Source: Microtetraspora fusca
GTDB lineage: Bacteria > Actinomycetota > Actinomycetes > Streptosporangiales > Streptosporangiaceae
DNA length: 64,000 bases
Assembly: GCF_001570365.1 (NCBI RefSeq)
Contig: NZ_BBYK01000077.1
Coordinates: 1-64,000, forward strand
Direction of reading: 5' to 3'
Shown: positions 31,259 through 53,775 of the stretch, in pieces
Layout of the letters: the number at the start of each line of letters is the position of its first letter
Numbering within the stretch: the stretch's first letter is position 1
Notes under the pieces: generated by a model
Told to the model about the DNA's origin: nothing
What the model saw: only the letters and a program-made list of their open reading frames with translations
Databases searched by the model: none
Program-made: the position numbers and the translations under genes

Positions 31259-31303
31259 AATGATGTCATTGTGGACACCTGTGCCGACCTTGCTGGATGT
31301 CCA
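31259..31303. promoter_or_regulatory. Divergent promoter region with inverted repeats between GlxA-type and MFS genes
   Basis: The gap holds AATGA-TG-TCATT (31259-31270) and a second pair, TGGACA and TGTCCA, separated by 20 bp (31272-31303). Either could be the regulator binding site. The region is AT-richer than its surroundings, as expected for promoters. No precise -10 is assigned. Confidence 0.4.
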
Positions 31304-31329
31304 GAGTAGATGGTCATGGAGTTCACGAA

Positions 31330-32553
31330 ATGACCGCAATTTACGACTGCGAACAGTCCCTCGCCGCCCCGGCCAGGCTCTGGACCAGGAACTTCGTCCT
31401 GTATTTCGGCGCCAGAGCGGTGTCGTTGCTCGGTGACGCGATGATGCCCGTCGCGACCGCGCTGGCCGTCGGCGCGATTTACGGGGTGTCCGGCGTCGGC
31501 TACGTGCTGGCCATCTATACCGCCCCGTTCGTGCTCTTCATCCCGTTCGGCGGAGTGTTCGCTGACCGGTTGGGCGCCCGGACCATGATGGTCGGCGCGG
31601 ACATCATCCGGATCTTCACCCAGACCGCGGTGGCCGTCGCCTTCTTCACCGGCACCCCGCCGCTCTGGCTGCTGCTGTCCGCCTCGTTCCTGTCCGGTAC
31701 GGCAAGCGCGATGTTCCAGCCCGGTGTCAACGGCATGGTCCCCCTTGTCGCCAAGGACCCGCAGCGCGCCAACGGCACCTTGAAGATCGCCGATGCGGCC
31801 ACCCAACTCGGCGGGCCCGTCCTCGCGGGCCTACTGATAACGCTGACCGGCGCGGGCGCCGTCTACGCGGTCGATGCGGGAACCTTCCTGCTCAGCGGCC
31901 TGTGCCTGGTCCTCGTCCGGCTGGCCTCGGCCACCGGGGCCAAGGAACGCTCGACGGTCATGGTGGACCTGCGCCGCGGCTGGCTGGAGTTCCGCTCCCG
32001 CAGCTGGATGTGGTCGGTGATCCTCATCTGGGTGTTCTTCGGCATCCTGGTCTTCGGCCCCTACATCCCGCTGGGCTCGCGCCTGATCGGCGACCGCCTC
32101 GGCGACGCCGCCTACGGCTGGGTGATGGCCGGCCTCGGCTCCGGCACCGTTCTCGGCGGGCTGATCGCGATCAAGATCCGGCCGTCACGACCGCTCGCCG
32201 CCGGTGGCGCGGCCATCTTCGGGTTCGGGTTCATCCCGCTGACGGTGGCGCTGGAACTGCCGCTGCCGCTGCTGATGGCGGGCCACCTGCTGGGCGGGAT
32301 GTCCTGGGCGTTCTGGTCGGTGATGTGGTCGACGAGCGTGCAGACCCAGGTCGCCCCCGACGTCCTCAACCGGGTCACCGCCTACGAGATCGCCGGATCG
32401 GTGTCCGGGATCGCCGTCGGGCAGGCACTGGTGGGACCGGTCTCGGAGATCGTCAGCCCTCGGGACCTGCTGTTCGTCTCCACCGGCGTCAGCTTCGCGG
32501 TCTGCGCGGCCCTGTTGCTGACGCGTCCGATCCGCCGACTCCGCCGGGCTTGA
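31330..32553 (+). CDS. MFS transporter, MFS_3 / exporter type
   Basis: A 407-aa, 12-helix transporter. FVLYFGARAVSLLGDAMMPVATALAV and the loop GGVFADRLGARTMMVGAD place it with the enterobactin-exporter-like MFS_3 group. RANGTLKIADAATQLGGPVLAGLL is typical of that group. The ATG at 31330 has GGAG 8 bp before it. It is divergent from a GlxA-type regulator, a layout common for inducible drug or metabolite exporters. The substrate is unknown. Confidence 0.88.
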   Translation: MTAIYDCEQSLAAPARLWTRNFVLYFGARAVSLLGDAMMPVATALAVGAIYGVSGVGYVLAIYTAPFVLFIPFGGVFADRLGARTMMVGADIIRIFTQTAVAVAFFTGTPPLWLLLSASFLSGTASAMFQPGVNGMVPLVAKDPQRANGTLKIADAATQLGGPVLAGLLITLTGAGAVYAVDAGTFLLSGLCLVLVRLASATGAKERSTVMVDLRRGWLEFRSRSWMWSVILIWVFFGILVFGPYIPLGSRLIGDRLGDAAYGWVMAGLGSGTVLGGLIAIKIRPSRPLAAGGAAIFGFGFIPLTVALELPLPLLMAGHLLGGMSWAFWSVMWSTSVQTQVAPDVLNRVTAYEIAGSVSGIAVGQALVGPVSEIVSPRDLLFVSTGVSFAVCAALLLTRPIRRLRRA

Positions 32554-35699: not shown

Positions 35700-35762
35700 A
35701 TGCTGCTCGAATGCAAATCGTCCCGCAGGGCCGTCGCTGAGCCGAACGGCGCGGGCCGGTGA
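35700..35762 (+). CDS. 20-codon leader ORF overlapping the MMPL start
   Basis: ATG at 35700 sits behind a strong AAAGGAGAGCAG site and encodes MLLECKSSRRAVAEPNGAGR. Its TGA overlaps the GTG start of the MMPL gene (GTGA), and that GTG has no good ribosome site of its own. The exporter is therefore probably translated by reinitiation after this leader. Whether the peptide itself matters is unknown. Confidence 0.6.
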   Translation: MLLECKSSRRAVAEPNGAGR

Positions 35763-37936
35763 ACGGCGAGACGAGGCGGCCGCTGACCGTACGGGTCGCG
35801 GGCTGGAGCGCCGCCCATCCGTGGCGGGCCATCATCGGCTGGTTCCTGTTCGTCGCGCTCTGTCTCGGTGCCGGCGCCGCAGTGGGCACCCGCAGCGCGT
35901 CCACCGAGGACTACCGGGTCGGCGAGGCGGGCCGGGCCGAGGCGATGGTCGCCGCGGGCGACCTGCAGCGCAGGCCCGTGGAGTACGTCACGGTCCGGGC
36001 CAGGTCCGGTCCGCTGGACGTGGCGGTGGCCCGCACCGTCGTGAAGGACCTCACCGCCCGCATGACGGCCCTACCCGAGGTCGCCCACGTCGACCCGCCG
36101 GTGCGATCGGCGGACGGCTCGGTACTCCGGGTGGACGTGACGATGAAGGGCGAGGAACTCGACGCCCGCAAGCACGTCGACGCGCTGCTGGACCAGACCT
36201 CGCAGGTGCAGAAAGAGCACCCGAACCTGGTCGTTGAGGAGACCGGCGGCCCCTCGATCAGCAGGGGCGTCGAGAAGCAGCGCGGCGACGACCTGGCGCT
36301 CTCCGAGACGCTCACGTTGCCGATCACGCTGGTGACCCTGCTGCTTGTCTTCGGCTCGGTGGTCATGGCAGGCGTGCCGCTACTGCTGGCACTTTCGTCG
36401 ATCGCCGCCGCGATGGGGCTCGGAATGATGGTCTCGCACATCGTCCCGGACGCCGGTGTGGGCAATAACGTGATCCTGCTGATCGGCATGGCGGTCGGGG
36501 TCGACTACACGCTGTTCTACCTCAAGCGGGAACGTGAGGAGCGTGCCCGTGCCGGGGGGCGGCTCAGTCCGGAGGCGGTGGTGGAGATCGCGACGGCCAC
36601 CTCGGGCCACGCGGTCGTGGTCTCCGGCCTCGCGGTGATCATCTCGACCGCCACGCTGTACCTGGCTGGGGACATCGTCTTCGCCTCCCTCGCGACGGGC
36701 ACGATCGTCGTGGTCCTGGTCGCGGTGATCAGCTCGCTCACCGTGCTGCCCGCGCTACTGGTCAAGATCGGCCGGCGAGCGGCCCGCAGGCGCAGGCCGG
36801 TCGCGCCCGAGAGGGCCGGCACGAGCCGGGTCTGGAGCGCCCTGCTGCGTCCTGCGAGCAAGCATCCGGCGATCACGCTGTGCCTGTCGGTACTGGTCAT
36901 GGTCGCACTGGCGCTTCCCGCGCTGGGCATGCAGTTGAGGGTCCTGAACAAGGACAGCCACTCACGCGAGATCCCCGCGTTGCAGGTGTACGACCGGCAG
37001 ACCGCCGCGTTCCCTGAGCTGCGCGTCCAGCACCAGGTCGTCGTACGGTCCGAGCCGGGACAGGCGGCCGAGGTCGCACGGGCGCTGCAGGATCTCGCGC
37101 GACGCGCGCAGGCGGACCCGTTGTTCGCCAAGCATGCGAACGCACGCGAGTCGGCAGACGGGCGCATCAGTGTGCTGGAACTGTCCACTCCGTTCCGGTT
37201 GAGTTCGCAAAAGGCCCGGGAGTCGCTCGACCGGCTCCGTAACGACTATCTGCCCGTCACGGTCAGTCGGCTGCCGGGGGTGGAGGCGGCCGTCACGGGG
37301 GACGTGGCCCGCGACGCCGACTATCTCGCCAACCAGGACGCCAAGCTGCCACTCGTCGTGGGGTTCCTGCTGCTTGCGACCTTCGTGATGACGGTCGTGA
37401 TGTTCCGCTCGCTGGTGCTCGGGCTGGTCGGGATCGCACTCAACCTGCTGTCCGCAGCCGGAGCGTTCGGGCTGCTTGTGGTGTTCTTCCAGCACGGCTT
37501 GGCGTCGGTGCTGTTCGGCTTCGACCCGAGCGCCACGAGCGCGATCGGGTCCCGGGTGCCGCTGTTCCTCTTCGTGATCCTGTTCGGGCTGTCGATGGAC
37601 TACCAGGTGTTCGTGGTGAGCCGGATCAGGGAGGCCGTGATGCGCGGGGTGCCCACCCGCCAGGCCGTCGTCGACGGCATCGGCACGTCCGCCGGTGTCG
37701 TGACCAGCGCCGCAGCCGTGATGGTGACCGTGTTCGCCGCCTTCGTTTTCCTTCACCTGGCCGAGATGAAGCAGATCGGCTTCAGCCTTGCGACCGCCGT
37801 GCTGCTGGACGCCTTCGTCATCCGCGTTCTGATCCTTCCGTCGGCGATGACGCTTCTCGGCCGGGTGGCGTGGTGGCCGTTCCATCCGGCGCCGCGCGGT
37901 GTGCCCGCCCCCGGAGGAGTCACGGCGCGCGTGTGA
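35759..37936 (+). CDS. MMPL/RND family transporter
   Basis: A 725-aa membrane protein with the MMPL plan: TM1 (AIIGWFLFVALCLGAGAAVG), a large extracytoplasmic domain, TM2-6, a second domain from about residue 390, and TM7-12. MAVGVDYTLFYLKREREERA and LFGLSMDYQVFVVSRIREAV are the paired MMPL TM4/TM10 signatures, with Asp residues for proton coupling. The C-terminus is short. Start GTG 35759 is coupled to a leader ORF. It lies in the same direction as the winged-helix regulator gene. The cargo is unknown, a lipid or natural product by family. Confidence 0.9.
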   Translation: MNGETRRPLTVRVAGWSAAHPWRAIIGWFLFVALCLGAGAAVGTRSASTEDYRVGEAGRAEAMVAAGDLQRRPVEYVTVRARSGPLDVAVARTVVKDLTARMTALPEVAHVDPPVRSADGSVLRVDVTMKGEELDARKHVDALLDQTSQVQKEHPNLVVEETGGPSISRGVEKQRGDDLALSETLTLPITLVTLLLVFGSVVMAGVPLLLALSSIAAAMGLGMMVSHIVPDAGVGNNVILLIGMAVGVDYTLFYLKREREERARAGGRLSPEAVVEIATATSGHAVVVSGLAVIISTATLYLAGDIVFASLATGTIVVVLVAVISSLTVLPALLVKIGRRAARRRRPVAPERAGTSRVWSALLRPASKHPAITLCLSVLVMVALALPALGMQLRVLNKDSHSREIPALQVYDRQTAAFPELRVQHQVVVRSEPGQAAEVARALQDLARRAQADPLFAKHANARESADGRISVLELSTPFRLSSQKARESLDRLRNDYLPVTVSRLPGVEAAVTGDVARDADYLANQDAKLPLVVGFLLLATFVMTVVMFRSLVLGLVGIALNLLSAAGAFGLLVVFFQHGLASVLFGFDPSATSAIGSRVPLFLFVILFGLSMDYQVFVVSRIREAVMRGVPTRQAVVDGIGTSAGVVTSAAAVMVTVFAAFVFLHLAEMKQIGFSLATAVLLDAFVIRVLILPSAMTLLGRVAWWPFHPAPRGVPAPGGVTARV

Positions 37937-38861: not shown

Positions 38862-39659
38862 AGGGCATCTCGTGGTCCCGTACCGCTTCGCCCACCGGCC
38901 GTTCCGCCGGAAGCGGTCGGCTTCCGGTCAGCGGTCGGGATCTCCGGCCGCCTGCGGGCGATGGTCGATTCGCCATGTCCAATGAATCGCCATGTCGAGG
39001 CCTGCGGCCGCGCCGGTAAATTCGCGTGTCAATATCAGATGCCCGGCCGGCCATGGAAAAGGGAATGCCATTCGCGACAAGGGCTACGCCTGGATGTGGA
39101 CCGCACGACCACGCCTAACCGGAAATCGCCACCGCCGAATTGGGGGAAATGTCATTTCGCTGTATAGCGGAGATGCATCACCCTCTATTTGACTGCGGCC
39201 GGTTCGGGCGTGTCATTCCGTTGACGGCGAAAAGCCGGTGCTCGCCGGAGGTTGCGAGGTGGACCGGGGCCCGCCCGGGTGGTCTTCCCGTGACACGACG
39301 GCGGCCTGCCGACGTGCTCCGCGGGCGATCCGTGAGGGGATCCGCCGGGCAGTAGGGGAGACGATCCCATGGCGGACAGTGCACGCCTTGATAATCCCCT
39401 ACGGGCCGTAGCGACTTTCTTCGGGATGGGTAATCGCTTTCCCGATGGCCGTGGAGGTCACGGAACGCTTTCACGTCACTACAACTCACGGCATCGGCCG
39501 TCCCCCAAGGCGGAAATCTCGCTTATTGGGTACCGTGTCCGAATAGATACATTCAGGTAACAAAACGGTTTTTGCCCTCTCTTGGGCAAGTCGCGTTTGC
39601 CACTCTTACCCTCGTACGACTTGAGCCTCCTTTACGGACATCGCGAGGAGACCCCCTAA
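38862..39659. other. Long non-coding interval before the NRPS genes
   Basis: About 800 bp with no credible gene on either strand; the frames are short and without domains. Parts of it (38950-39200 and 39480-39600) are AT-richer than the rest of the window. The hairpin TTGCCC-TCTCTT-GGGCAA lies at 39572-39589, 70 bp before the NRPS start. The region probably holds the NRPS promoter and a long 5' leader. Confidence 0.55.
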
Positions 39660-42600
39660 GTGGTTGGCAAGCTTGAACTGCTCGAACCGGTCCATAAGGC
39701 CTTTGAGCAGCAGGTAAGACGAACTCCTGACCGGACAGCGGTCATCGCCGGGACGGCCCGAACGGTCTACACCGACCTCAACGCCCGGGCCAACCGGATC
39801 GCCCACGAACTCATCGCCCAAGGAGTGGGGCGAGGTTCGACCGTCGGCGTGTGCCTGGACCGCGATGAGAGGCTGATCGCGGCGCTTCTGGCCGTCTGGA
39901 AGACCGGCGCCGCCTACGTGCCGCTCGACGCGACCTACCCGGCCGACCGCCTGGAGTTCATCATCGAGGACGCCGGGGTGTCGCACACGGTGACCTCGGC
40001 GGCGCTGTCGGAGCGGCTTCCGGAGCGTGGCCTCGTCCTGGTGGAGACCGTCGGCCACCGCCCTGACCACGATCCGGATCTGCCGAGCGACCCGGCCGAC
40101 CTGGCGTACATCATGTACACCTCCGGCTCGACCGGGCGGCCCAAGGGCGTGTCGATCGAACACAGCAACGTGATGACGCTGCTGCGCTGGGACGCCGACT
40201 ACTTCACCGCCGAAGAACTGGCCGGATTCCTCGCCTCGACGTCGGTCTGCTTCGATCCGTCCGTTCCCCAGCTCTATCTCCCCCTGCTGCTCGGCGGCAC
40301 GGTGATCATCGCCGAAAACCCCCTCGCCCTGCACACCCTGCCCGCCAAGGACGAGGTCACGATGATCAGCGCGGCGGCCTCGGCGCTGACCGCGATGCTG
40401 CGGGAGCCGCTGCCCCCGAACGTGCGCACGGTGCTCTCCAGCGGCGAACCGGTGAGCCGCGCGCTGGCCGACCGCGTCTTCGTCAACCCCGGCGTGCGGC
40501 GCATGGTCAACCTGTACGGGCCGACCGAGTGCACCGTGCACTGCTGCGCGTCCGAGATCTCCAGAGACGAGACCGGCGAGCCGCCGATCGGCACGCCCTA
40601 CGCCTGGTCGCAGCTGTCGGTGCGCGGCGGCGACGGCGAGGCGCTCGGCGACGGAGAGCTCGGCGAACTCTGGGTGGCCGGCCCATTGGTCGGCCGAGGC
40701 TACCTGAACCGGCCCGAGCTGACCGCCGAGCGGTTCGTGACCGACGCCGACGGCGTGCGCCACTACCGCACCGGAGACCTGGTCCGCAGGGAGAACAGCC
40801 TCTACTTCTACGAAGGCCGGATCGACGACCAGGTGAAGGTCGCGGGCTTCCGCGTCGAGCTGGGCGAGGTGCAGGGCAGACTGGCGCGTCACCCGCTGGT
40901 GAACCACGCCGTCGTGCTCGCCCCCACCGACGAGGAGGGGACCCGGCGGCTGGTCGCCTACATCGAGCCGTCCGGCCCGGGCCTCGACGACGGGCGGTTG
41001 CGGTCCTGGCTGCGCGAATGGCTGCCCGACTACATGGTCCCCTCCCGCTTCGTGTTCCTCGACGCGATCCCGGTGGGCCCCACGGGGAAGGCGGACCGTT
41101 CCCGGCTGCCCGCGGTGACCTTCTTCACCGCGCCGACCTCGTCCGCCGACGGGGGTGGCCCCACGGCCGAGTACGTCGCCCCCCGGGACGAGACCGAGGA
41201 GCGGCTCGCCGCCATCACCGCCGAGGTGCTCGGCGTCGAACGGGTCGGCGTCCACGACCACTTCCTCGACCTGGGCGGGCACTCCCTGGCCGCCGCCAAG
41301 ATCTGCGCCAGGATCGAGCACACGCTCGGCGTCCACGTGGCGCTGACGACGTTCCTGGCCCGGCCCACCGTCGCCGAGCTGGCGTCGTACATCGCCGAGG
41401 CCGCACCCACCGCGACGACCCCGCTGACCCGCCACGCGGGCCGCGGCAGCTATCCGCTGTCCACCGGCCACCGCGCCATGCAGCTGATGCGTGAGGTCAG
41501 CCAGAACATGGGCGCCACCGCGATCGCGTTCCGGCTCGGGCTGCGCGGCCTCACCTCGGCCGAGCCGGTGCGAGCCGCCCTGGACGCGATCGTGCGCCGC
41601 CACGAGGCGCTCCGCTCCGTCGTGGTGGACGGCGTCACGGCGGTGGTCAGGCCGCCGCTGCCCGTGCCGTTCGAAGAGCACCGCCCGGCTTCCGACAACG
41701 AGGCGGACGAGCTGCGGCGGGCCGCGGTCGACCATGACTTCGACATCGCCGAGGAGTCGCCGCTGCTGCGGGCCACCCTGCTGTGGTCCGGGCCGGACAG
41801 CGCGGAACTGGTGCTCCTCACCGACCACACCGCGTTCGACGGCTGGTCGCTGGGGGTCGTCATGGAGGAGCTTCTCGACGGGCTCGCCAACGGCGGCGAC
41901 ATCCGGTTGCCGGAACCGCGGTTCCAGATCGGCGACGTCGCGCTGCGCGAGCAGGCGACCGTCCTGGACACCGAGGCCCTGCGGGCCTTCTGGGCCGAGG
42001 AGCTCGCCGGCGCCGTCCCGCCGTTCGAGCTGCTTCCCCGCGCGCACGACCGCCTCAGCCGCCTGAACGGTGAGCGACTGGTACGCGGGATTGACCCGTC
42101 GACGGCCGCCCGGGTCGCCGAACTGGCGGCCGACTGCGGCGCGACCCCGTTCGCCATCTACCTGACCGTGCTCGGCATGCTGGTCGCCGGGCTGACCGAT
42201 CGGCGGGACGTCGTCCTCGGCGCCGCCGTGGCGGATCGCGCCGACCCCGGCCTGGAGTCCGTGGTCGGCATGCTGGTCGACGTGATCCCGGTGCGGTTGC
42301 GCCTGGAGGACGGGCTGTCCCTGCGCGAGGCCGTACGGCACGCCGGAGCCGTGACCGCCCGTGCGATGGACCACCACGCGCTGTCGGGGCCGGAGCGGGC
42401 CGAGGCGAGTGGCGTGGAGCGCCCGCCCGGCGCGGTGCTGACGCCGGTCACGCTGTCGATCCAGCCGTCGGAGGTGCCCCTCTCCCTGGAGCGCGAGGGT
42501 GTGGCCGTGGATCTGATCGGCGAGCTGGACGCGGGCAGCGCCCAGGCGCCGCTGATCGTCTATGTCAACGACACGGCCGCCGGGCTCCAGCTTCAGGTCG

Positions 42601-44504
42601 AGTGGGACGTGGAGCACCTGGACCGGCCCGGCGCCGAGGTCCTCACCGAGCGCCTGGTCCGTCTGCTGGAAGACGCCCTGGCCCACCCCGATCGGCCGCT
42701 GTCGGCGTTCGAGGTGGTCGGCGCCGAGGAGCGGGCGGAGCTGCTGGCCGCCGGAACCGGCGTACCGCTGCCCGGCGACGCGCCGCGCACCGTGGTGGAG
42801 GCCGTGCTGGAGCAGGCCGTACGGCGCCCGCACGCACCGGCGGTCGTCGACGCCGAGGGCGCCCTCACCTACGGCGAGCTGGCCGACGTGGCGCGACGGG
42901 TCGCGACGGCGCTCGGCCCGGCCGCCGCGGGTACCTGCGTCGGCGTCTGCCTGCCCCGCGACCGGTACCTCCCGGCGGCGCTCGTGGGCGTGCTGCTCGC
43001 CGGCGCCGCCTACGTCCCGCTCGACCCCGGCAACCCGTTCCAGCGGCTCGGGGACCAGGTCGAGGACGCCGGCATCAAGATGATCGTCGCGGCGGGCGAG
43101 GCGCTGGCGGTGGCCGAGCGGCTGGGCGTCGCCGTCGTCGACCTCGCCGGGCTGTCGTCGGCGCAAGCCGTACCGGTTGAGGTGGACCCCGCCGACCTCG
43201 CGGCGGTGGAACCCGACGGCGTGGCCTACGTCCTCTACACCTCCGGCTCCACCGGCAGGCCGAAGGGAGTCGAGGTCACGCACGCCAACCTCGCGGCGTT
43301 CGTCACCTCGATGACGATCGCCCCCGGGGTCCGGCCCGACGACGTCATGCTCGGCCTGACGCCGTTCTCGTTCGACGTGTTCGGCTTCGACCTGTGGGTG
43401 AGCCTGTGCCACGGCCTGCGGCTGGAGATGCTCGGCCGTGAGGACGCGCTCGACGGGCGGGCCGTCGCGCGGCGGATCGAGGAGGCCGGGGTCACCCTGA
43501 TGACGGCCACCCCGACGAGCCTGCGCATGCTGGTCGCCTCCGGCTGGCGTGGCGGGAACGTGCGCGTGGTCAGCATCGGCGAGGTGCTCGACGCGCCCCT
43601 CGCCGGCGACCTGCTGGAGCGGGTGGCCGAGCTGTGGAACGCCTACGGCCCCACCGAGACCACGATCTACTCCACGATGATCCGGGTGACGGCCCCGGTC
43701 GGCGACCCGGTGTCGATCGGCACGCCGCTGGCGGGGGAGCGCGCCTACGTGCTCGACCGGGCGGGCCGCATGCTGCCCGCCGGAGCCGTCGGCGACCTGT
43801 GGATCGGCGGCGTGGGCGTGGCGAGGGGGTACCGGGGGCGGCCCGAGCTGACCGCCGCCGCCTTCACCGAGGACCCGCTGGGCGGGCGCCGGTACCGTAC
43901 CGGTGACCTGGCCCGCTGGCGGCCGGACGGCACGCTCGACTTCCTCGGCCGCCGCGACCACCAGGTCAAGGTGCGCGGTCACCGGATCGAGCTGGGCGAG
44001 ATCGAGACCGCGCTCCGGGAGAACGTCGCCGACGCGGCCGTGATCGTGCACGGTGGCGACCACCTGGTCGGCTATCTCGCGGCGCCGGCGGGGACCGACA
44101 CGGGCGAGCTGGAGCGGCGCCTGAGCTCCCGGCTCCCGGACTACATGGTTCCCCGCCGCTGGGTGCTCCTGGACGCCCTGCCGCTCACGGCCTCCGGCAA
44201 GGTGGACCGGACCGCGCTGCCCGAGCCCGGCGACGACACCCCGCGGGTGCCGCCGAGCACCGAGGCCGAGTTGCTGGTCGCCGACGTGTGGGCCGCCGTG
44301 TCGAGCCGTTCCGACCTCGGCGCGCACGACGACTTCTTCGCCCTCGGCGGCCACTCCGCCACCGCCGCCCTCGTGGCGGCCCGGCTGAGCGACGCCCTCG
44401 GCCTGCGCGTGCCCGTGCGCCTGCTGTTCGAACGGCGGAGGCTCGCGGACTACGCCGCGCAGATAGAGGTCCTGCTCCTGGCCGACATGGAGGAGGCCCG
44501 GTGA
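39660..44504 (+). CDS. Non-ribosomal peptide synthetase, modules 1-2 (A-T-C-A-T)
   Basis: A 1614-aa synthetase. Adenylation domain 1 spans about 8-500 (YTSGSTGRPKG near 153, YGPTECT, PTGKADR). Carrier 1 has LGGHSLA with its Ser near 541. The condensation domain spans about 595-1010; its motif is DHTAFDG near 721, so the first His of HHxxxDG is Asp while the catalytic His remains. A2 spans about 1045-1510 (YTSGSTGRPKG near 1192, YGPTETT, RTGDLARW). Carrier 2 has LGGHSAT near 1562. With no starter condensation domain it loads the first residue directly. A1 is unusual at motif A4 (CFDPSVPQLYLPLLLGG). The start is GTG after GAGGAG. No MbtH gene is in the window. Confidence 0.95.
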   Translation: MVGKLELLEPVHKAFEQQVRRTPDRTAVIAGTARTVYTDLNARANRIAHELIAQGVGRGSTVGVCLDRDERLIAALLAVWKTGAAYVPLDATYPADRLEFIIEDAGVSHTVTSAALSERLPERGLVLVETVGHRPDHDPDLPSDPADLAYIMYTSGSTGRPKGVSIEHSNVMTLLRWDADYFTAEELAGFLASTSVCFDPSVPQLYLPLLLGGTVIIAENPLALHTLPAKDEVTMISAAASALTAMLREPLPPNVRTVLSSGEPVSRALADRVFVNPGVRRMVNLYGPTECTVHCCASEISRDETGEPPIGTPYAWSQLSVRGGDGEALGDGELGELWVAGPLVGRGYLNRPELTAERFVTDADGVRHYRTGDLVRRENSLYFYEGRIDDQVKVAGFRVELGEVQGRLARHPLVNHAVVLAPTDEEGTRRLVAYIEPSGPGLDDGRLRSWLREWLPDYMVPSRFVFLDAIPVGPTGKADRSRLPAVTFFTAPTSSADGGGPTAEYVAPRDETEERLAAITAEVLGVERVGVHDHFLDLGGHSLAAAKICARIEHTLGVHVALTTFLARPTVAELASYIAEAAPTATTPLTRHAGRGSYPLSTGHRAMQLMREVSQNMGATAIAFRLGLRGLTSAEPVRAALDAIVRRHEALRSVVVDGVTAVVRPPLPVPFEEHRPASDNEADELRRAAVDHDFDIAEESPLLRATLLWSGPDSAELVLLTDHTAFDGWSLGVVMEELLDGLANGGDIRLPEPRFQIGDVALREQATVLDTEALRAFWAEELAGAVPPFELLPRAHDRLSRLNGERLVRGIDPSTAARVAELAADCGATPFAIYLTVLGMLVAGLTDRRDVVLGAAVADRADPGLESVVGMLVDVIPVRLRLEDGLSLREAVRHAGAVTARAMDHHALSGPERAEASGVERPPGAVLTPVTLSIQPSEVPLSLEREGVAVDLIGELDAGSAQAPLIVYVNDTAAGLQLQVEWDVEHLDRPGAEVLTERLVRLLEDALAHPDRPLSAFEVVGAEERAELLAAGTGVPLPGDAPRTVVEAVLEQAVRRPHAPAVVDAEGALTYGELADVARRVATALGPAAAGTCVGVCLPRDRYLPAALVGVLLAGAAYVPLDPGNPFQRLGDQVEDAGIKMIVAAGEALAVAERLGVAVVDLAGLSSAQAVPVEVDPADLAAVEPDGVAYVLYTSGSTGRPKGVEVTHANLAAFVTSMTIAPGVRPDDVMLGLTPFSFDVFGFDLWVSLCHGLRLEMLGREDALDGRAVARRIEEAGVTLMTATPTSLRMLVASGWRGGNVRVVSIGEVLDAPLAGDLLERVAELWNAYGPTETTIYSTMIRVTAPVGDPVSIGTPLAGERAYVLDRAGRMLPAGAVGDLWIGGVGVARGYRGRPELTAAAFTEDPLGGRRYRTGDLARWRPDGTLDFLGRRDHQVKVRGHRIELGEIETALRENVADAAVIVHGGDHLVGYLAAPAGTDTGELERRLSSRLPDYMVPRRWVLLDALPLTASGKVDRTALPEPGDDTPRVPPSTEAELLVADVWAAVSSRSDLGAHDDFFALGGHSATAALVAARLSDALGLRVPVRLLFERRRLADYAAQIEVLLLADMEEAR

Positions 44505-44569
44505 CCGAGATCGCCGAGGCCCGCAAGAGACACGACACCGCGGTCACGCGACCGACGGAGGAGATCTGA
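44501..44569 (+). CDS. 22-codon ORF bridging the two NRPS genes
   Basis: GTG 44501 overlaps the stop of the first NRPS gene (GTGA). The ORF encodes MTEIAEARKRHDTAVTRPTEEI, and its TGA overlaps the ATG of the second (TGATG). A strong GGAGGAG for the second NRPS lies inside it. The double overlap suggests ribosomes can pass from one synthetase gene to the next, keeping their ratio. The sequence could also be a docking-peptide remnant; I see no family. Confidence 0.45.
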   Translation: MTEIAEARKRHDTAVTRPTEEI

Positions 44570-47500
44570 TGACCATCAGCGACGAGCGCCAGAGCGCTCT
44601 CGCCGCCAGGCTGTCGGCGGCACGCCGCGCCGCCGCCCAGGCCGCCCCGGCCATCCCCGTCAGAGGGGCGGCCGACGGCCCTGCCGCTCTGTCCCCCACC
44701 CAGGCCCGGCTGTGGTTCCTTTCCCAGCTCGACGACCTGGCCGCGTACAACGTGCCCGCCGCCGTGCGGCTGCGCGGCCCGCTCGACGCCGACGCGCTGC
44801 TGAGCGCCGTACGGGATCTCGCCGACCGGCACGAGGTGCTGCGCAGCCTGGTCACCGACGACGGCGCCACCCCGGTCGAGGCCGACCGGGTCCCGGTCAC
44901 GGTCGAGGACCTCGACGACCCCGACCGGCTGGAGACGCGGCTGCGGGAGGAGCTGGCGCGGCCGTTCGCGCTGGAGTCCGAACCGCCCACCCGCGCCCTG
45001 CTGCTCCGCCTTCCCGGCGGCGAGGAGCACGTGCTCGCGCTGACCGTGCACCACATCGCCTTCGACGCGTGGTCGCGGAACCTCGCGCTGGCCGAACTGG
45101 CCGCCCTCTATGCGGCACGGCTCGGCCTGGCCGAGCCGCCCGCGCCGCCCCGGGTGCAGTACGCCGACTACGCGGCGTGGCTCGCCGGGCAGCCGGAGGG
45201 CGACCTCGCCTGGTGGACCGAACGGCTGGCAGGACTCGAACCCGTCCTGGACCTGCCGGTGGACCGGACGCGGCCGTCGATCGCGGACTGGTCGGGCGCG
45301 TCCATCCCCGTACGGCTGACGGCCGAGCGGACCGCCAGGATCCGGGAGGTCGCCGCCGAGAACGGCTGCACGCCGTTCATGGTGCTGCTGGCCGCGTGGC
45401 AGGAACTGCTCGGCCGGATCTCCGGAACCGACGACGTGCCGGTCGGCGTGCCGGAGGCGGGGCGGCTCCATCCCGAGACCGCGCGCATGTTGGGCTGCTT
45501 CGTCAACACGCTCGTCCTGCGCGGCGACAGGTCCGGCGAGCCGACCGGTCGCGAGCTGCTGGCCCGGACCAAGGACGCGGCGCTGGACGCGCTCACCCAC
45601 CGGGACGTGCCCTTCGACCGGATCGTGGAGCACCTGCACCCCGAGCGCAACCTCGCCACCACGCCGATCTTCCAGGTGATGCTCAACGTCCTGGAGGACC
45701 GTCCCCAGGCGCTGGAGTTCCCCGGCCTGACCGCCGAGCCGGTGCAGGCCCAGCTCCACACCACCAAGTACGACCTCAACCTCGCCTTCGTCAACGGCGG
45801 CGAGGAGTACGACGGCGAGCTCACCTACCGCACGGACCTGTTCGACGAGTCGACCGCGCGGCGCATGGTCGGCTGGTATCTGAACCTGCTGGAGGGCATG
45901 CTCGCCGACCTGGACGCGCCTGTGGCGGCCGTGCCGCTGGAGCCGGTGGGCGGGCCCGTCGTCGCGGGCACCCGGATGCAGATGGACCTGACGCGGCCGC
46001 TGCACGAGGTCATCGGCGACTGGGTCCGGCGCACGCCGGAGGCGGTCGCGGCGGTGGACGCCACCGGATCGCTGACCTACGGAGAGGTGGACCGGCTGGC
46101 CAACCGCCTGGCCCACCACCTCGTGGCGGCCGGGGTACGGCCCGACGAGCCGGTCGGCGTGCTCGTCGACCGGCACCGTGGCCTGGTCCCCGCGCTCCTT
46201 GGCGTGCTGCGGGCCGGCGGCGCGTACATGCCGATGGAACCCGCCTACCCCGACGACCGTCTCGCGTACATGATGGAGACGGCCGGCGCGCGCGTGGTGC
46301 TGGCCGACGCCGAGCACGCCGCCCGGGTCCCCGGTGCGCTGGTCCTGCCCGATCTCCTGGCCGACGGGCCCGACGACCCCCTGGACGTCGACGTCACCCC
46401 CGGCCACCTCGTACACGTGATCTTCACGTCCGGCTCCACCGGGCGGCCCAAGGGGGCCGGGATCGAGCATCGGTCGGCGATGCACTACCTGCATGGCCTC
46501 GCGGAACTGGTGCCCGACACCTACGCGTCCTACGCCGTGGTCTCCACGATCGCCTCCGACCTGGTCATGACCTGCCTGTACGGCGCGCTCGTCCGGGGCG
46601 CCGCGGTCCACCTGGTGGACCAGGACGCGGCCACCGACCCGGAGGCGTACGCCGCCTACCTCGAGGCGCATCCGGTCGACGCCATCAAGATGGTGCCCAG
46701 CCACCTTGAGCTGCTCGCCGCCCACGGCGACCTGGCCCGGATGCTGCCGCGCCGGATGCTGATCCTCGCCGGTGAGGCGACGTCGTGGGAGCTGGCCGCG
46801 CGCATCCGCGCCGCCCGTCCGGATCTGGAGGTGCAGATCCACTGCGGGCCGACGGAGACGATGGTCTCGGTCCTCGGCGGCCGGCTGCCCGACACGCCGA
46901 CGGGGTCCGGGTCGGCCCCGCTGGGCCGCCCGTTTCCCGGTGTCGACTGCTACATCGTCGACCCGGCGGGACGTCCGCTGCCCGCCGGGGTGCCGGGTGA
47001 CCTGTGGGTCGCCGGCCCGAGCCTGGCCCGCGGCTATCTGAACCGGCCCGACCTGACCACCGATCGGTTCGTCCCCGATCCGGTGACGGGGACCAGCCGC
47101 TGCTACCGGACCGGCGACCGGGTCCGGCTCAACTCCGCCGGGCTGGTGGAGTTCCTCGGCCGGGTCGACGACCAGGTCAAGATCAGGGGCTTCCGGGTGG
47201 AGCTGGGCGAGGTGAAGGCCGCCCTGCAGGAGCAGCCCGGGGTCCGGGAGGCGGCGGTGCTGCCGGTCGGCGAGGGCCGCTCCCGGCGGCTGGCCGCCTG
47301 GGTCGCGCCGGCCTCCGTGGATGTCGCCGAGATCCGCGCGGGACTGCGTGATCGGTTGCCCGACTACATGGTCCCGAACGCGATCGTCGTCCTCGACGAG
47401 CTGCCGCTCACCCCGCTGGGCAAGGTCGACCGGGCCCGCCTGCCGGTCCCCGAGGCGACGCCCGCCGGAGAGCGGGTCGCGCCGAGCACGCCCACCGAGC

Positions 47501-49905
47501 AGCGGATCGCCGCGGTGTGGGCCGGCATCCTCGACCTGGACGCCGACGACTTCGGCGTCGACGACGACTTCTTCGCCCTGGGAGGCGACTCCTTCCGCGC
47601 GGTACGTGCCGTCCGCGAGATCGATCCGGCCCTGCGGGTGATCGACCTGTTCACCCGGCCCACGATCCGTGAGCTGGCCGCCCACGTCGACGGCGGCGAC
47701 GAGGCCGCGGCCGGGCTGCTGCACCGCCTGTCCGGTCCGCGCACGGCCACCCGCACCGTTGTCTGCCTGCCGTACGGCGGCGGATCGGCCGCCGCCTACC
47801 AGCCGCTCGCGGCCGAGCTGGGCCGTACCTCGCCCGGCACGGCGGTGCTCGCCGTCGAGCTGCCCGGCCACGACCCGGCCCGGCCCGACGAGGCCATGCT
47901 CTCGATGCCGGAGCTGACCGACCGGCTCGCGGCCGAGCTGGCCGACGTGTCCGGTCCGATCGCGCTGTACGGCCACTGCGTCGGCTCGGCCGCCGCGACC
48001 GAGCTGGCGCTGCGGCTGGAAGCGTCCGGAAAGCAGGTCGCCGGCGTCTTCGTCGGCGGCAGCTTCCCCGACGCGCGGCTGCCCGGACGGCTGTCGGCCT
48101 GGTGGAACAAGAAGTTCCCCGCGCACCGCTGGGCCAACGACCGCGTCCAGCGGGACTTCCTGCGGACCCTCGGCGCTCTCGACGAGGACTTCGGCGACAC
48201 CGAGATCATGCTGCGCGGCCTGCGGCACGACGTCGGTGAGGCCCAGGCGTGGTTCGGCAGCCGCCTCGACTCTTCCGCCGAGGAACGCAGGCTCACGGCG
48301 CCGCTGGTGTGCGTGATCGGTGAGCGCGACCGCGCGACCGAGCTCTACCAGGAGCGCTACCGCGAGTGGGGGGCGTTCGCCGAGCGGGTCGGGCTGGCCA
48401 CGATCCCGCGGGCCGGTCACTACTTCCTCAAGCACCAGGCCGAGACTCTGGCCCGGCTGATCGAGGAGCACCTGGACCGCTGGGCCGGCGGCGACCTGCC
48501 CGAGCCCGTCGGAGAGATCGAGGTCTCCGGTCAGAGCGCCCGGCGGGACCTGCGCCGCTTCTACACGGTCGCGGCCGGTCAGACCGTCTCGCTCCTCGGC
48601 GCGGCGCTGACCTCGTTCGCGCTGGGCGTGTGGGCGTACCAGGAGAACGGCCGCGTGCTCGACTACGCCGTCGTCACCATGCTCGCCCTGCTGCCGTCGA
48701 TGCTGGGAGCGCCGCTGGGCGGCGCGGTCGCCGACCGCGTGGACCGGCGGCTCGTCATGCTGGTGTGCGACGGCGTCTCCGCCGTGGCCACCGCGGCCCT
48801 GGTGATCCTGCTGTGGCTGGGACGGCTGGAAGTCTGGCAGGTGGGCATCATCGCCGGACTGCTGTCGCTGGTGTCGGCCTTCCACCGGCCCGCCTACCTC
48901 GCGGCGGTGGCGCAGTTGGTGCCCAAGCCGTACCTCATGCAGGCCAACGCGCTGGCGAACCTCGGCACCGGCCTGGGCATGCTCATCGGACCGCTGGCCG
49001 GCGCCGCGCTCATCACGTTGATCGGGCTGCACGGCGTGGTGGCCGTGAACATCGTCACCTTCCTCGCCGGGCTCGGCACGCTGCTGATGGTGCGCTTCCC
49101 CGACCGGCTGTTCCACCGCCTGGAGGAGTCCTTCGGTCAGGCCATCGTCGGCGGCTGGCGCTTCCTCATCCGGCGTCGCCCCCTGATGATCATGATCGGG
49201 TTCTTCGTCGTGATGAACTACCTGAACATGCTCGGGGTGGCCGTGACGGTGCCCGCGGTGCTGTCGTTCAGCGACGTCGCCGGCGTCGGTACGGTCACCG
49301 CGATGCAGGGCCTGGGCGCGGTGGTCGGCTCCCTCGTCATGGTGTTCTGGGGCGGCACCGAACGGCGCGCGATCGGCATGGTCGGCTTCGTGATCGGTTT
49401 CGGGACCGGAGTGCTGCTCGTCGGGTTGCGGCCCTCGCTCGTGCTGGCCGCCTTCGGCGGGCTGATGGCGTGGGTGTTCCTCAGCGTGCTGAACGCGCAC
49501 TGGCTCGCCCTCATCCAGCTCAAGGTCGGCCTGGAGCTGCAGGGCCGGGTGCTGGCCACCAACCAGATGCTCGCGGTTTCGATGACGCCGCTGGCGTTCC
49601 TCACCGCGCCGCTGCTGGCGGACGACGTCTTCGGCCCGCTGCTCGTCAAGGGTGGCCCCCTCGCGGACACCGTGATCGGCGACATCGTCGGGGTGGGGCC
49701 GGGGCGCGGCGTCGGACTGCTGCTGGCCCTCTGTGGCGGGTTGCTGATCCTCTGGGGCGCGCTGGGGCTCTGGTACCGGCCGCTGCGGCTCATGGAGGAC
49801 GCGCTGCCCGACGCGGTGGCGGGCGCCGAGATCGCCGATGATCTGGACGGCGTCCAGGTCGAGGCCGACGCCGCCCTGCTGGAGGGGGCCGGCCGAGCCC
49901 GGTGA
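44569..49905 (+). CDS. Non-ribosomal peptide synthetase module 3 with thioesterase and fused MFS exporter (C-A-T-TE-MFS)
   Basis: A 1778-aa protein. The condensation domain spans about 40-455, with HHIAFDAWS near 161 (Ala for the usual Gly). The adenylation domain spans about 475-960 (FTSGSTGRPKG near 619, CGPTETM, LGKVDRARL). The carrier has LGGDSFR near 1005. The thioesterase, about 1060-1310, has VVCLPYGGGSAAAYQPLA, a nucleophile elbow YGHCVGS with Cys at 1137 instead of Ser, an Asp in VIGERDRA and a His in RAGHYF. From about 1325 to 1745 a complete 12-helix MFS transporter follows in frame (GQTVSLLGAALTSFALGVWAY, GGAVADRVDRRLVM). The C-terminal 30 residues are acidic. Release and export of a tripeptide by one membrane-bound protein is the natural reading. 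Confidence 0.93.
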   Translation: MTISDERQSALAARLSAARRAAAQAAPAIPVRGAADGPAALSPTQARLWFLSQLDDLAAYNVPAAVRLRGPLDADALLSAVRDLADRHEVLRSLVTDDGATPVEADRVPVTVEDLDDPDRLETRLREELARPFALESEPPTRALLLRLPGGEEHVLALTVHHIAFDAWSRNLALAELAALYAARLGLAEPPAPPRVQYADYAAWLAGQPEGDLAWWTERLAGLEPVLDLPVDRTRPSIADWSGASIPVRLTAERTARIREVAAENGCTPFMVLLAAWQELLGRISGTDDVPVGVPEAGRLHPETARMLGCFVNTLVLRGDRSGEPTGRELLARTKDAALDALTHRDVPFDRIVEHLHPERNLATTPIFQVMLNVLEDRPQALEFPGLTAEPVQAQLHTTKYDLNLAFVNGGEEYDGELTYRTDLFDESTARRMVGWYLNLLEGMLADLDAPVAAVPLEPVGGPVVAGTRMQMDLTRPLHEVIGDWVRRTPEAVAAVDATGSLTYGEVDRLANRLAHHLVAAGVRPDEPVGVLVDRHRGLVPALLGVLRAGGAYMPMEPAYPDDRLAYMMETAGARVVLADAEHAARVPGALVLPDLLADGPDDPLDVDVTPGHLVHVIFTSGSTGRPKGAGIEHRSAMHYLHGLAELVPDTYASYAVVSTIASDLVMTCLYGALVRGAAVHLVDQDAATDPEAYAAYLEAHPVDAIKMVPSHLELLAAHGDLARMLPRRMLILAGEATSWELAARIRAARPDLEVQIHCGPTETMVSVLGGRLPDTPTGSGSAPLGRPFPGVDCYIVDPAGRPLPAGVPGDLWVAGPSLARGYLNRPDLTTDRFVPDPVTGTSRCYRTGDRVRLNSAGLVEFLGRVDDQVKIRGFRVELGEVKAALQEQPGVREAAVLPVGEGRSRRLAAWVAPASVDVAEIRAGLRDRLPDYMVPNAIVVLDELPLTPLGKVDRARLPVPEATPAGERVAPSTPTEQRIAAVWAGILDLDADDFGVDDDFFALGGDSFRAVRAVREIDPALRVIDLFTRPTIRELAAHVDGGDEAAAGLLHRLSGPRTATRTVVCLPYGGGSAAAYQPLAAELGRTSPGTAVLAVELPGHDPARPDEAMLSMPELTDRLAAELADVSGPIALYGHCVGSAAATELALRLEASGKQVAGVFVGGSFPDARLPGRLSAWWNKKFPAHRWANDRVQRDFLRTLGALDEDFGDTEIMLRGLRHDVGEAQAWFGSRLDSSAEERRLTAPLVCVIGERDRATELYQERYREWGAFAERVGLATIPRAGHYFLKHQAETLARLIEEHLDRWAGGDLPEPVGEIEVSGQSARRDLRRFYTVAAGQTVSLLGAALTSFALGVWAYQENGRVLDYAVVTMLALLPSMLGAPLGGAVADRVDRRLVMLVCDGVSAVATAALVILLWLGRLEVWQVGIIAGLLSLVSAFHRPAYLAAVAQLVPKPYLMQANALANLGTGLGMLIGPLAGAALITLIGLHGVVAVNIVTFLAGLGTLLMVRFPDRLFHRLEESFGQAIVGGWRFLIRRRPLMIMIGFFVVMNYLNMLGVAVTVPAVLSFSDVAGVGTVTAMQGLGAVVGSLVMVFWGGTERRAIGMVGFVIGFGTGVLLVGLRPSLVLAAFGGLMAWVFLSVLNAHWLALIQLKVGLELQGRVLATNQMLAVSMTPLAFLTAPLLADDVFGPLLVKGGPLADTVIGDIVGVGPGRGVGLLLALCGGLLILWGALGLWYRPLRLMEDALPDAVAGAEIADDLDGVQVEADAALLEGAGRAR

Positions 49906-49916
49906 ACCACGTGTGT

Positions 49917-49963
49917 CCACCCCGGCACCCGCGCTCCTTGGTCAGGGGCCGGGGCCGGGGTGG
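49917..49963 (+). terminator. Hairpin after the NRPS-MFS gene
   Basis: CCACCCCGGC and GCCGGGGTGG are perfect 10-bp arms around a 27-nt loop, beginning 12 bp after the stop. It is the likely end of the NRPS transcript. Confidence 0.5.
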
Positions 49964-50968: not shown

Positions 50969-51139
50969 CCCTGCGGTGGCGTGATGATCTCCGGCGAAGC
51001 CACCTTCACCGAGGCGCACAACACACGCGATCAGGCCGGCATCGGCCTGATCGCAGGTCGTGTCACCGCCTCGCTCAGCGGTACACGAACGCCCCGGGAC
51101 ACTTTCCGGCGACCCGCCTTTGGCGCACAATCAACGCTG

Positions 51140-53101
51140 ATGGCTTCGAAGCTCAGACTTGTCGTCTCGGCCACCGTGACGCTGGCCGTGCTCTTCGCTG
51201 CCGTAGGCGTGGCATTGATCGGCACCGGTCACCTGAGCCGGCTGTCCATCCTGATTTCGGTGACCGCAGTGGTGTACCTGGCGGTCGCTTTCGTCGGCGC
51301 GGCGATACTGCGAACACAGCCGCACAGCCGGACCGGCTGGATCTTCCTCATCTCCGGCACGGCGGCGCCGATCGCGTCCGCGCTCAATGCCGCCGCCGAT
51401 GTCGGGGCGCAGGTCGGCAGGATCGACGCCGCATCGTGGATTTACCTGGCGCAGACTCCGTTCAGCCTTCTCAGCGTGCCCCTGATGGCGACCTTCGGGA
51501 TCCTGCTCTTCCCCGACCGCCGCCTGGACACACGGCGTCGGCGTGTGCTCGGGCGAGTCTTCGCTGTCGAGCTTCTCGTGCTTCTGGTGTGGGCGCTGCT
51601 CTCGCCGGAATCGATTGACGTGCCAGGGCTCTACAACCCCATCGGGGTGCCGGGCGCCGACGTGCTGGTGATCAGCATCCTTCTCGTCGGACCGCTCAGC
51701 CTGCTGGCGTGTATCTCGCTGTGGCGCTTCGCCCGGCGCGACACCGGCCCGTACACACCTGCCCTGCGTACGGCCGCTCGGGTTTCGTTCGTCGTGCCCG
51801 CCTCGTACATCGCGTGTGTGATCGCGGGATTCACCTCCGGAGACACGGCGCCCATCGCTGTCCTGGAGAACTGCGCGGCGATCGCGGTTGGAGCCGCGGC
51901 GTGGATCGGCATCGCGAGGCACGGACTGTTCGACACCCGTACGGTGCTCAATCGGGCACTGGTGTACGGGTTTCTGAGCTTGGCGCTCGTCGCGGTCTAC
52001 CTCATCGTGGTCGTTTCACTCGGCCTGTTCTTCGGCGGTCTCGTGCCGCAGGTCGTCGCCGCGGTCATGGCCGCCCTTGCGGTGTTGCCACTGCGTGACC
52101 TGGTGCAACGCCGGATCAACCAGCTTGTTTACGGGCTTCGAGACGATCCGGCGGCCGCGTTCGCCCGACTCGGCGACCGGCTGGACGCGGCCGGGGCGCC
52201 CGAGGACATCCTCCCGGCCGCCGTTCGTACGGTTGCCGAGGCTCTTCGACTCCCGTACGTGGCGATCGAAGTGGGCGGCGAGGTGCTGTGCCGTCACGGG
52301 CGCGCGCTGCCCGGCGAGACGGAGGCACTGCCGCTGCCCTTCGCCGGTGAGACGATCGGGCATCTGATGCTGCAGACCCGCAGCGGCGGCGACTTTTCGG
52401 CGGACGAACGACGGCTGCTGGCGGACTTGACGAAGCAGGTAGCCGTGGCGGCCCGAGCAGTAGTGCTGACCCAGGCGCTGCAGTCCTCCCGGCAGCGGCT
52501 GGTGACGACGCGTGAAGAGGAGAGGCGGCGGCTGCGCCGCGACCTGCACGATGGTCTCGGCCCCACGCTCGCCGGCATCGCGCTGGGCATCGACACAGTA
52601 CGCCGGGCGACGCCGCCGGACGGGTCTGTCGCGGAACTGCTGGCGAGGCTTCGCGAAGCCACCGAGTCGGCGGTCCACGACATCCGCCGCCTCGTCTATG
52701 ACTTGCGGCCTCCGATCCTCGACGAGCTGGGCCTCGCAGGGGCCGTACGGGAACAGGCAGTGCGACTGGGCGTGGCGAGCATCGACGTTCCCGAGGCACT
52801 TCCATCGCTGCCCGCCGCGGTGGAGGTGGCGGCGTACCGCATCGCCGTCGAGGCCCTGACCAACGCGGCGCGCCACGCGCCGGGAACGCCGGTGTCGGTC
52901 CAGCTCGCGGTGAACAGCTGCCTTGAGCTGTCGATCGCGGACGGTGGCGCCGGTCTGCCGGACGGATATCGCGCGGGCGTCGGCCTCAACTCGATGCGGG
53001 AACGGGCCGCGGAGCTCGGTGGCTTGTGTGTGGTGAGCCGGCGTGACCCGTGCGGAACAATCGTGCGCGCGGAGTTCCCGCTGTTCGAGGAGGCGCTGTG
53101 A
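51140..53101 (+). CDS. Membrane sensor histidine kinase, NarL-system type
   Basis: A 653-aa kinase. Residues 5-300 hold about eight or nine transmembrane helices. A GAF-like segment (residues about 350-460) follows. The HisKA_3 dimerisation domain has the phospho-acceptor His in EEERRRLRRDLHDGLGPTLAGIAL near 465. The HATPase_c domain has the N box ALTNAARHA and ends in GVGLNSMRERAAELGG. ATG 51140 is preferred; an extension to 50981 has no membrane or sensor character. Its stop overlaps the response-regulator start (GTGA). The large membrane input domain suggests sensing of membrane or envelope stress. Confidence 0.9.
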   Translation: MASKLRLVVSATVTLAVLFAAVGVALIGTGHLSRLSILISVTAVVYLAVAFVGAAILRTQPHSRTGWIFLISGTAAPIASALNAAADVGAQVGRIDAASWIYLAQTPFSLLSVPLMATFGILLFPDRRLDTRRRRVLGRVFAVELLVLLVWALLSPESIDVPGLYNPIGVPGADVLVISILLVGPLSLLACISLWRFARRDTGPYTPALRTAARVSFVVPASYIACVIAGFTSGDTAPIAVLENCAAIAVGAAAWIGIARHGLFDTRTVLNRALVYGFLSLALVAVYLIVVVSLGLFFGGLVPQVVAAVMAALAVLPLRDLVQRRINQLVYGLRDDPAAAFARLGDRLDAAGAPEDILPAAVRTVAEALRLPYVAIEVGGEVLCRHGRALPGETEALPLPFAGETIGHLMLQTRSGGDFSADERRLLADLTKQVAVAARAVVLTQALQSSRQRLVTTREEERRRLRRDLHDGLGPTLAGIALGIDTVRRATPPDGSVAELLARLREATESAVHDIRRLVYDLRPPILDELGLAGAVREQAVRLGVASIDVPEALPSLPAAVEVAAYRIAVEALTNAARHAPGTPVSVQLAVNSCLELSIADGGAGLPDGYRAGVGLNSMRERAAELGGLCVVSRRDPCGTIVRAEFPLFEEAL

Positions 53102-53775
53102 CGGTACGAGTCGTCGTGGCGGACGACCATCCGCTGTTCCGCGAGGGGCTGCGGTCGCTCATCTGCGACTCGGCCGAGACCGAACTGGCCGGGGTGGCCG
53201 CCGATGGCGACGAGGCCGTCGCCGTCACGCTCGAGCAGCGTCCCGACGTGGTCGTCATGGACCTGCGGATGCCCGGTCTCAACGGTGTCGACGCGACCCG
53301 CAAGATAGTTGCCGCGCTGCCCGATGTCGCCGTGCTGGTGTTGACGATGGTGGAAGAGGACGCATCGATATTCGCGGCGATGCGTGCGGGCGCACGGGGT
53401 TATGTCCTCAAGGGCGCCGAACCCGAGACCATTCTGCGCTCGATCCTCGTTGTCGCGGCAGGTGAGGTGATCTTCGGTTCCGCGATCGCCTCGCGCCTGA
53501 CCCAGTTCTTCGCGGTCGGCGGCAGCACCACTGTGACGCCCTTCCCCAACCTCACCAGCCGCGAACGCGACATCCTCGCGCTCATGGCGACAGGCGTGAA
53601 CAACAGGACGATCGCGATGCGCATCGGAGTGACCGAGAAGACGGTGCGCAACAATGTGTCGAACATCTTCGCCAAACTGCGCGTCGCTGACCGAGCGGCG
53701 GCCGTGGCGCGGGCGCGTGACGCCGGGTTGGGTTCGTTGCCACCGCAGCGCGGGTCTCCGGCTCTTCCGGCTTGA
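53098..53775 (+). CDS. NarL/FixJ-family response regulator
   Basis: A 225-aa regulator. The receiver domain has the acidic pair in VVVADDHPLFREGL, the phospho-acceptor Asp in VVVMDLRMPGLNGVD near 53, a Thr in VLVLTMVEED and a Lys in GYVLKGA. The LuxR-type HTH is LTSRERDILALMATGVNNRTIAMRIGVTEKTVRNNVSNIFAKL. It is coupled to the kinase by a GTGA overlap. The target is unknown; the membrane protein at 50276 is the nearest candidate. Confidence 0.93.
   Translation: MTVRVVVADDHPLFREGLRSLICDSAETELAGVAADGDEAVAVTLEQRPDVVVMDLRMPGLNGVDATRKIVAALPDVAVLVLTMVEEDASIFAAMRAGARGYVLKGAEPETILRSILVVAAGEVIFGSAIASRLTQFFAVGGSTTVTPFPNLTSRERDILALMATGVNNRTIAMRIGVTEKTVRNNVSNIFAKLRVADRAAAVARARDAGLGSLPPQRGSPALPA

Follow-up and report, generated by a model that had tools for sequence, protein, structure and literature searches.

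A nonribosomal peptide synthetase of Microtetraspora fusca ending in a fused thioesterase and MFS transporter: a recurrent architecture with a probable role in export-coupled release

How a cell exports the products of its nonribosomal peptide synthetases (NRPSs) without being damaged by them is not well understood. A locus of Microtetraspora fusca, lying within the window analysed here (the whole stretch of 64,000 nucleotides), raises the question of whether the enzyme that frees a peptide from its assembly line and the pump that expels it may be parts of a single polypeptide, and whether such an arrangement is genuine, widespread and functional. The answer proposed below is drawn from domain architecture, comparative genomics and a structural model.

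The synthetase and its neighbourhood

The assembly line is encoded by two genes on the forward strand, delineated from the open reading frames, Pfam domains and a reading of motifs. Gene 1 (39660..44504) begins with GTG and encodes a protein of 1614 residues with the order A-T-C-A-T, comprising modules 1 and 2, while gene 2 (44569..49905) begins with ATG and encodes 1778 residues ordered C-A-T-TE-MFS, comprising module 3, the release domain and a transporter. All of these domains score above their Pfam curated cut-offs, and the two-gene, three-module line described in the sequence-only reading is thereby confirmed. The genes are separated by 64 nucleotides and each is preceded by a Shine-Dalgarno-like sequence, that of gene 1 being AGGAG at about 39646-39650. 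Within gene 1, the A domains of modules 1 and 2 occupy 39690..41129 (+; code DPPSLSLVHK) and 42795..44234 (+; code DVFTVIAIYK), and gene 2 opens with the condensation domain C3 (44683..45933, +), followed by A3 (46021..47424, +; code DLTKIAHVSK) and the carrier domain T3 (47500..47688, +). The core motifs read as intact in all three A and all three T domains and both C domains keep their His motif (DHTAFDG and HHIAFDA), such that the line is a modular NRPS by its A, T and C domains and their core motifs; with three A domains, its product is likely to be a tripeptide.

The pair appears to form a self-contained unit. A blastn comparison with the orthologue of M. malaysiensis gives 95.5% nucleotide identity over 39040-49960 and then stops, and the blastn ends together with a reading of the sequence define a shared upstream region at 39040..39659 (+). 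Homology to Streptosporangium extends from about 39527 to 49895 and includes the upstream stretch of about 39527-39659. The two genes are thus conserved between genera whose flanks are unrelated, with homology ending just outside both of them, which is consistent with the minimal two-gene cluster initially envisaged. Across 17 orthologous loci (L050-L066), only four open reading frames of the window beyond the pair found matches, at 25-54% identity and all more than 8 kb upstream. Since the pair has no other conserved neighbour, the fused MFS domain is the only transporter that accompanies the synthetase in the loci seen. The initial statement that no separate exporter is visible holds for this conserved unit but not for the surroundings, where two transporters are encoded upstream, one of the MMPL kind (35759-37936) and one of MFS_3 type (31297-32553).

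The MMPL gene was considered as a member of the cluster and rejected: with 11 of 12 genomes searched, its relatives in M. malaysiensis match at merely 32-44%, and the blastn homology ends at 39040. An 86% copy exists in Sphaerisporangium fuscum, with coordinates that would overlap the NRPS if both lay on the same contig, placing it elsewhere. The genome holds four MbtH genes, none of them on this contig, in agreement with the absence of an MbtH gene from the cluster noted earlier. A siderophore cluster was likewise discarded, as no DmdR/IdeR iron box was found in the window with up to three mismatches to a single consensus, which is weak evidence. Downstream of the pair and outside the conserved unit, 50981-53775 encodes a histidine kinase and a LuxR-type response regulator.

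The divergence of gene 2 at synonymous sites was compared with that of housekeeping genes. Against M. malaysiensis it is 0.07, equal to that of ileS; across three Streptosporangium it is 0.22-0.27, below ileS (0.34-0.38) and gyrB (0.38-0.46); and for Nonomuraea and Sphaerisporangium it is 0.54, above the 0.37-0.44 of ileS and gyrB. These values hint at, and do not prove, some horizontal movement of the pair. The three module codes are conserved across Microtetraspora, Streptosporangium, Planomonospora and Microbispora, where module 2 alone varies, by no more than one change, and the module 1 code differs in Nonomuraea and Sphaerisporangium.

A thioesterase of the ObiF1/SulM type

The release domain lies at 47734..48498 (+) and bears a putative catalytic triad of Cys1137, Asp1254 and His1284 (numbering of the gene 2 protein). 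Its closest relative among solved structures is ObiF1 (E 1.7e-36), and a Foldseek search with the predicted structure places ObiF1 first and SulM second. The nucleophile motif is GHCVG, of the GxCxG form that presents a Cys. Of 102 fused sequences, 101 have the catalytic Cys (Ser in L086), and the catalytic Asp and His are likewise each found in 101 (the thioesterase of L112 is gapped at both). At position C+27, where EntF-like domains carry an earlier Asp, 90 of the same 102 sequences have Gly, 11 have Ala and one has Cys. An Asp at the later position without the earlier one is the pattern of the ObiF1/SulM type, and by these residues the domain is assigned to that cysteine-nucleophile class. 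Published work on these enzymes likewise places a Gly at the earlier Asp position of ObiF1 (Gly1173), attributes this active-site arrangement to both ObiF1 and SulM, and has both of them closing four-membered rings. The thioesterases of the obafluorin (ObiF1) and sulfazecin (SulM) pathways therefore share with this one a Cys nucleophile, a later Asp and a Gly at the position of Gly1173 of ObiF1, but here the thioesterase is followed by an MFS domain and the last module has an Asp-like A domain; neither ObiF1 nor SulM is known to carry a transporter.

The A-domain codes were read by anchor motifs in GrsA numbering, and the Asp and Ser types were compared with published codes, among which DLTKVGHVGK is given as a code for Asp and Asn (PMC12283262). 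The A3 code, DLTKIAHVSK, reads as the Asp type. Of the last-module A domains, 87 distinct ones were compared: Lys occupies position 278 in 71, and nine are of the Ser type DVWH. An Asp-like A3 offers no beta-hydroxyl for the four-membered-ring chemistry of the ObiF1/SulM type, and this chemistry is hence not simply transferable to the present line. The chemistry would allow a beta-lactone in the Ser-type lines, whereas the Asp-type lines could yield an anhydride, another ring or a plain hydrolysis product. Most of the Ser-type last A domains occur in a second fused clade (L036-L044, L139-L148 and kin), many members of which have an extra residue at the nucleophile elbow (GHCGVG versus GHCVG).

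The fused transporter: spread, origin and conservation

A short linker (48499..48543, +) joins the thioesterase to an MFS domain at 48544..49788 (+). The two domains share one frame in all 20 loci fetched with TE-MFS queries and, at the NRPS end, in all of the best 80 of 478 relatives from a species-level genome collection; the queries favour fused loci, and these counts measure the breadth of the fusion and not its frequency. The best 80 comprise 63 Actinomycetota, nine Chloroflexota, five Bacillota and one each from Pseudomonadota, Spirochaetota and SAR324. The search for this architecture elsewhere, suggested at the outset, thus returned the same fusion in six phylum-level groups, and TE-MFS is a family and no one-off gene. 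A stop masked between thioesterase and transporter, raised earlier as a possible refutation, is ruled out by the same frame across independent assemblies. That a sequencing or assembly artefact joined two genes has a negligible probability, given that the frame is also shared by other species and phyla and that codon use is even over the junction, with a third-position GC of 0.89-0.97 throughout gene 2, TE-MFS junction included.

The linker measures 8-108 residues in the 102 fused sequences, with a median of 16. Among the matches listed for 60 relatives, at least 14 genomes contain single-frame TE-MFS matches, all from the window's own taxonomic family, and 13 of these were examined by domain scan. 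A thin sample of the phylum, 396 genomes with two scored candidates each, showed the fusion at E up to 1e-40 in the source genome alone, and the family is therefore patchy. The source genome has five lines ending in TE-MFS, on contigs C76, C69, C75, C65 and C40; the four further lines, on C69, C75, C65 and C40 (L030, L039, L139 and L140), each end in a TE-MFS of their own. Fused copies are also present in plasmid records of Streptomyces clavuligerus and Embleya. In loci of Herpetosiphon and Paenibacillaceae, a glycosyltransferase-like gene lies between an A-T gene and a C-A-T-TE-MFS gene (L118:5160-6608 by Pfam match; kin in L096, L099, L106, L107, L116, L117 and L122 by blastp), a layout seen in two phyla. 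No bacterial NRPS TE-MFS or NRPS-MFS fusion was found by title in the open-access literature searched; each part is familiar, and it is their joining and its consequence that appear to be new.

The phylogeny of the MFS domain fits a single fusion event, with support that is good, not overwhelming. In a tree of 122 sequences, retained from 130 after dropping identical ones and those below about 330 residues or 30 bits, the 102 fused sequences form one side of a branch with an SH-aLRT of 89. In a more careful tree of 48, in which the fused sequences were thinned to 33 and the unfused ones of L020, L022, L023, L024, L101 and L137 were omitted, the 33 are separated from the unfused ones in 94% of 200 bootstraps (support 93/78). 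Among 11 loci of unfused relatives, seven have NRPS domains nearby, while four have none in the fetched stretch, two of the four lying either at the end of a contig or on a short one. The unfused MFS gene of a Trichormus plasmid begins 14 bp past the stop of an NRPS, and in L131, L145 and L149 the unfused relative directly adjoins an NRPS ending in a reductase domain (NAD_binding_4), which suggests peptides of the aldehyde or alcohol type and an exporter dedicated to them. The NRPSs of the unfused loci L132 and L172 end in Thioesterase domains with better Pfam scores than that of the window. In the loci examined, the fusion goes together with an ObiF1-type thioesterase; as the fusion probably arose once, this association is not replicated evidence.

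As first noted from the sequence, the MFS domain is complete, in frame after the thioesterase and equipped with an intact motif A. The frame is the same in its orthologues. The stretch from residue 1334 to 1733 of the gene 2 protein contains twelve hydrophobic segments, and an AlphaFold2 model built with 21 sequences (mean pLDDT 82.4, pTM 0.81), which comes without interdomain confidence, has twelve transmembrane helices by count. The Pfam models MFS_1 (81.5 bits; cut-off 33.4) and MFS_3 (52.4 bits; cut-off 27), together with the twelve helices and motif A (GAVADRVDRR at residue 1385), identify the domain as a member of the MFS. Foldseek also matches the model to MFS transporters such as LmrP and EfpA; among solved structures searched by sequence, no MFS relative was found at E up to 0.1. 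The nearest families are efflux pumps, namely Mef (MefA and MefB), Tap, Tet(V) and EntS, with scores below the curated cut-off of every NCBIfam transporter model matched. The domain is thus related to, but falls outside, the DHA3 H+ antiporter subfamily TIGR00900 (E 9.1e-51; 173.3 bits against a cut-off of 319.6) and the EntS exporter model (E 4.8e-19; 68.6 bits against 324). These DHA3-type pumps, of which EntS exports an NRPS product, resemble the domain in sequence across most of its length, but they are separate proteins, whereas here the pump belongs to the NRPS chain.

The strict motif A is kept in 100 of 102 fused sequences, and in four comparisons the MFS domain has the lowest dN/dS of the large domains, 0.20-0.26. 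Across 104 fused sequences, polar residues within or close to the transmembrane helices are conserved, among them Q1338, D1389, R1390, K1652 and R1660. Q1449 and E1520 are invariant in all 104 and are not the usual residue in 13 unfused relatives, and may thus have a function linked to the fusion. Pairwise distances of the thioesterase correlate more tightly with those of the MFS domain (0.927) than with those of the A (0.859) or C (0.790) domain in 90 of the 102 fused sequences, those with short A, C or TE domains having been dropped; with close pairs removed, the values are 0.895, 0.785 and 0.681, respectively. On these features the MFS domain looks like a working transporter.

Release, export and competing explanations

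The explanation favoured here, with a probability of about 0.68, is export-coupled release, in which the fused MFS domain exports the peptide freed by its own thioesterase. Gene 1 would load and join residues 1 and 2, and the terminal protein would add residue 3 according to its Asp-like A-domain code. The chain would then move onto the cysteine of the ObiF1/SulM-type thioesterase and be released by cyclisation or hydrolysis, and the MFS domain of the same polypeptide would export the product while holding the site of release against the membrane's inner face. This is considered the best explanation because the one-frame fusion recurs, the tree fits a single fusion, TE and MFS show the tightest co-divergence, the MFS domain is under purifying selection and the unit consists of two genes. 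That the MFS domain exports this particular product is probable, since motif A is intact, dN/dS is low and its relatives are found among efflux pumps and beside NRPS genes. A direct hand-off from thioesterase to transporter is a more tentative proposal, somewhat less likely than not; the co-divergence and conserved residues would also fit a rigid scaffold without channelling.

The strongest competitor to export-coupled release differs from it chiefly on this last point. The MFS domain may export the product or protect the producer without any channelling, the fusion merely fixing stoichiometry and co-expression and the product crossing the cytosol, a reading that falls somewhat short of even odds. 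It gains from the unfused relatives, which serve as separate genes beside NRPSs and indicate that such transporters do not generally require fusion; against it, no fused sequence falls among the unfused in either tree and no reversal was seen, which is weak evidence for channelling. The domain might instead have lost transport and act mainly as a membrane anchor for the NRPS, as any TE-MFS fusion would tether the protein. A whole MFS domain of twelve helices is needless for anchoring, however, and its low dN/dS, near-universal motif A and conserved polar transmembrane residues make this unlikely. Import or flipping of a synthetase substrate, as in LplT-Aas, is less probable still. LplT-Aas is an MFS transporter fused to an adenylate-forming enzyme, and in this it resembles the present protein, whose MFS domain gives weak matches to the LplT-Aas models PRK08633 and PRK06814. 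Efflux pumps match better, though, and Pfam finds no acyltransferase domain in the protein, which places it outside LplT-Aas; its transporter is joined to the release domain and not to the loading end.

Two other systems invite comparison. In mycobacteria, an interaction between the polyketide synthase PpsE and the transporter MmpL7 is put forward, in the title of one study, as a way of coupling synthesis to export; the likeness lies in a megasynthase coupled to a transporter, but MmpL7 and PpsE are two proteins with an RND-type transporter and a lipid product, whereas here an NRPS and an MFS transporter form one chain (PMC1238737). Two table entries for Verticillium list a polyketide synthase with the order KS-AT-ACP-ACP-TE-MFS; by this description a megasynthase there too finishes with TE-MFS, but it is a fungal polyketide synthase and not a bacterial NRPS (PMC9495618).

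A broader and rather speculative proposal is that one ancient fusion gave rise to NRPSs whose labile or reactive product, a lactone, an anhydride or a small ring formed on a Cys thioesterase, passes straight into their own transporter, bypassing the cytosol, and that the fusion was kept since the product would be hydrolysed by or harmful to its producer. As the release enzyme and exporter lie in one chain, whether they are coupled can be tested directly, by splitting the chain, by point mutation or by a transport assay. The TE-MFS architecture also provides a handle for genome mining, both for ObiF1-type thioesterases beyond the known beta-lactone and beta-lactam pathways and for autonomous peptide pathways of two genes with an exporter of their own, found here in six phylum-level groups.
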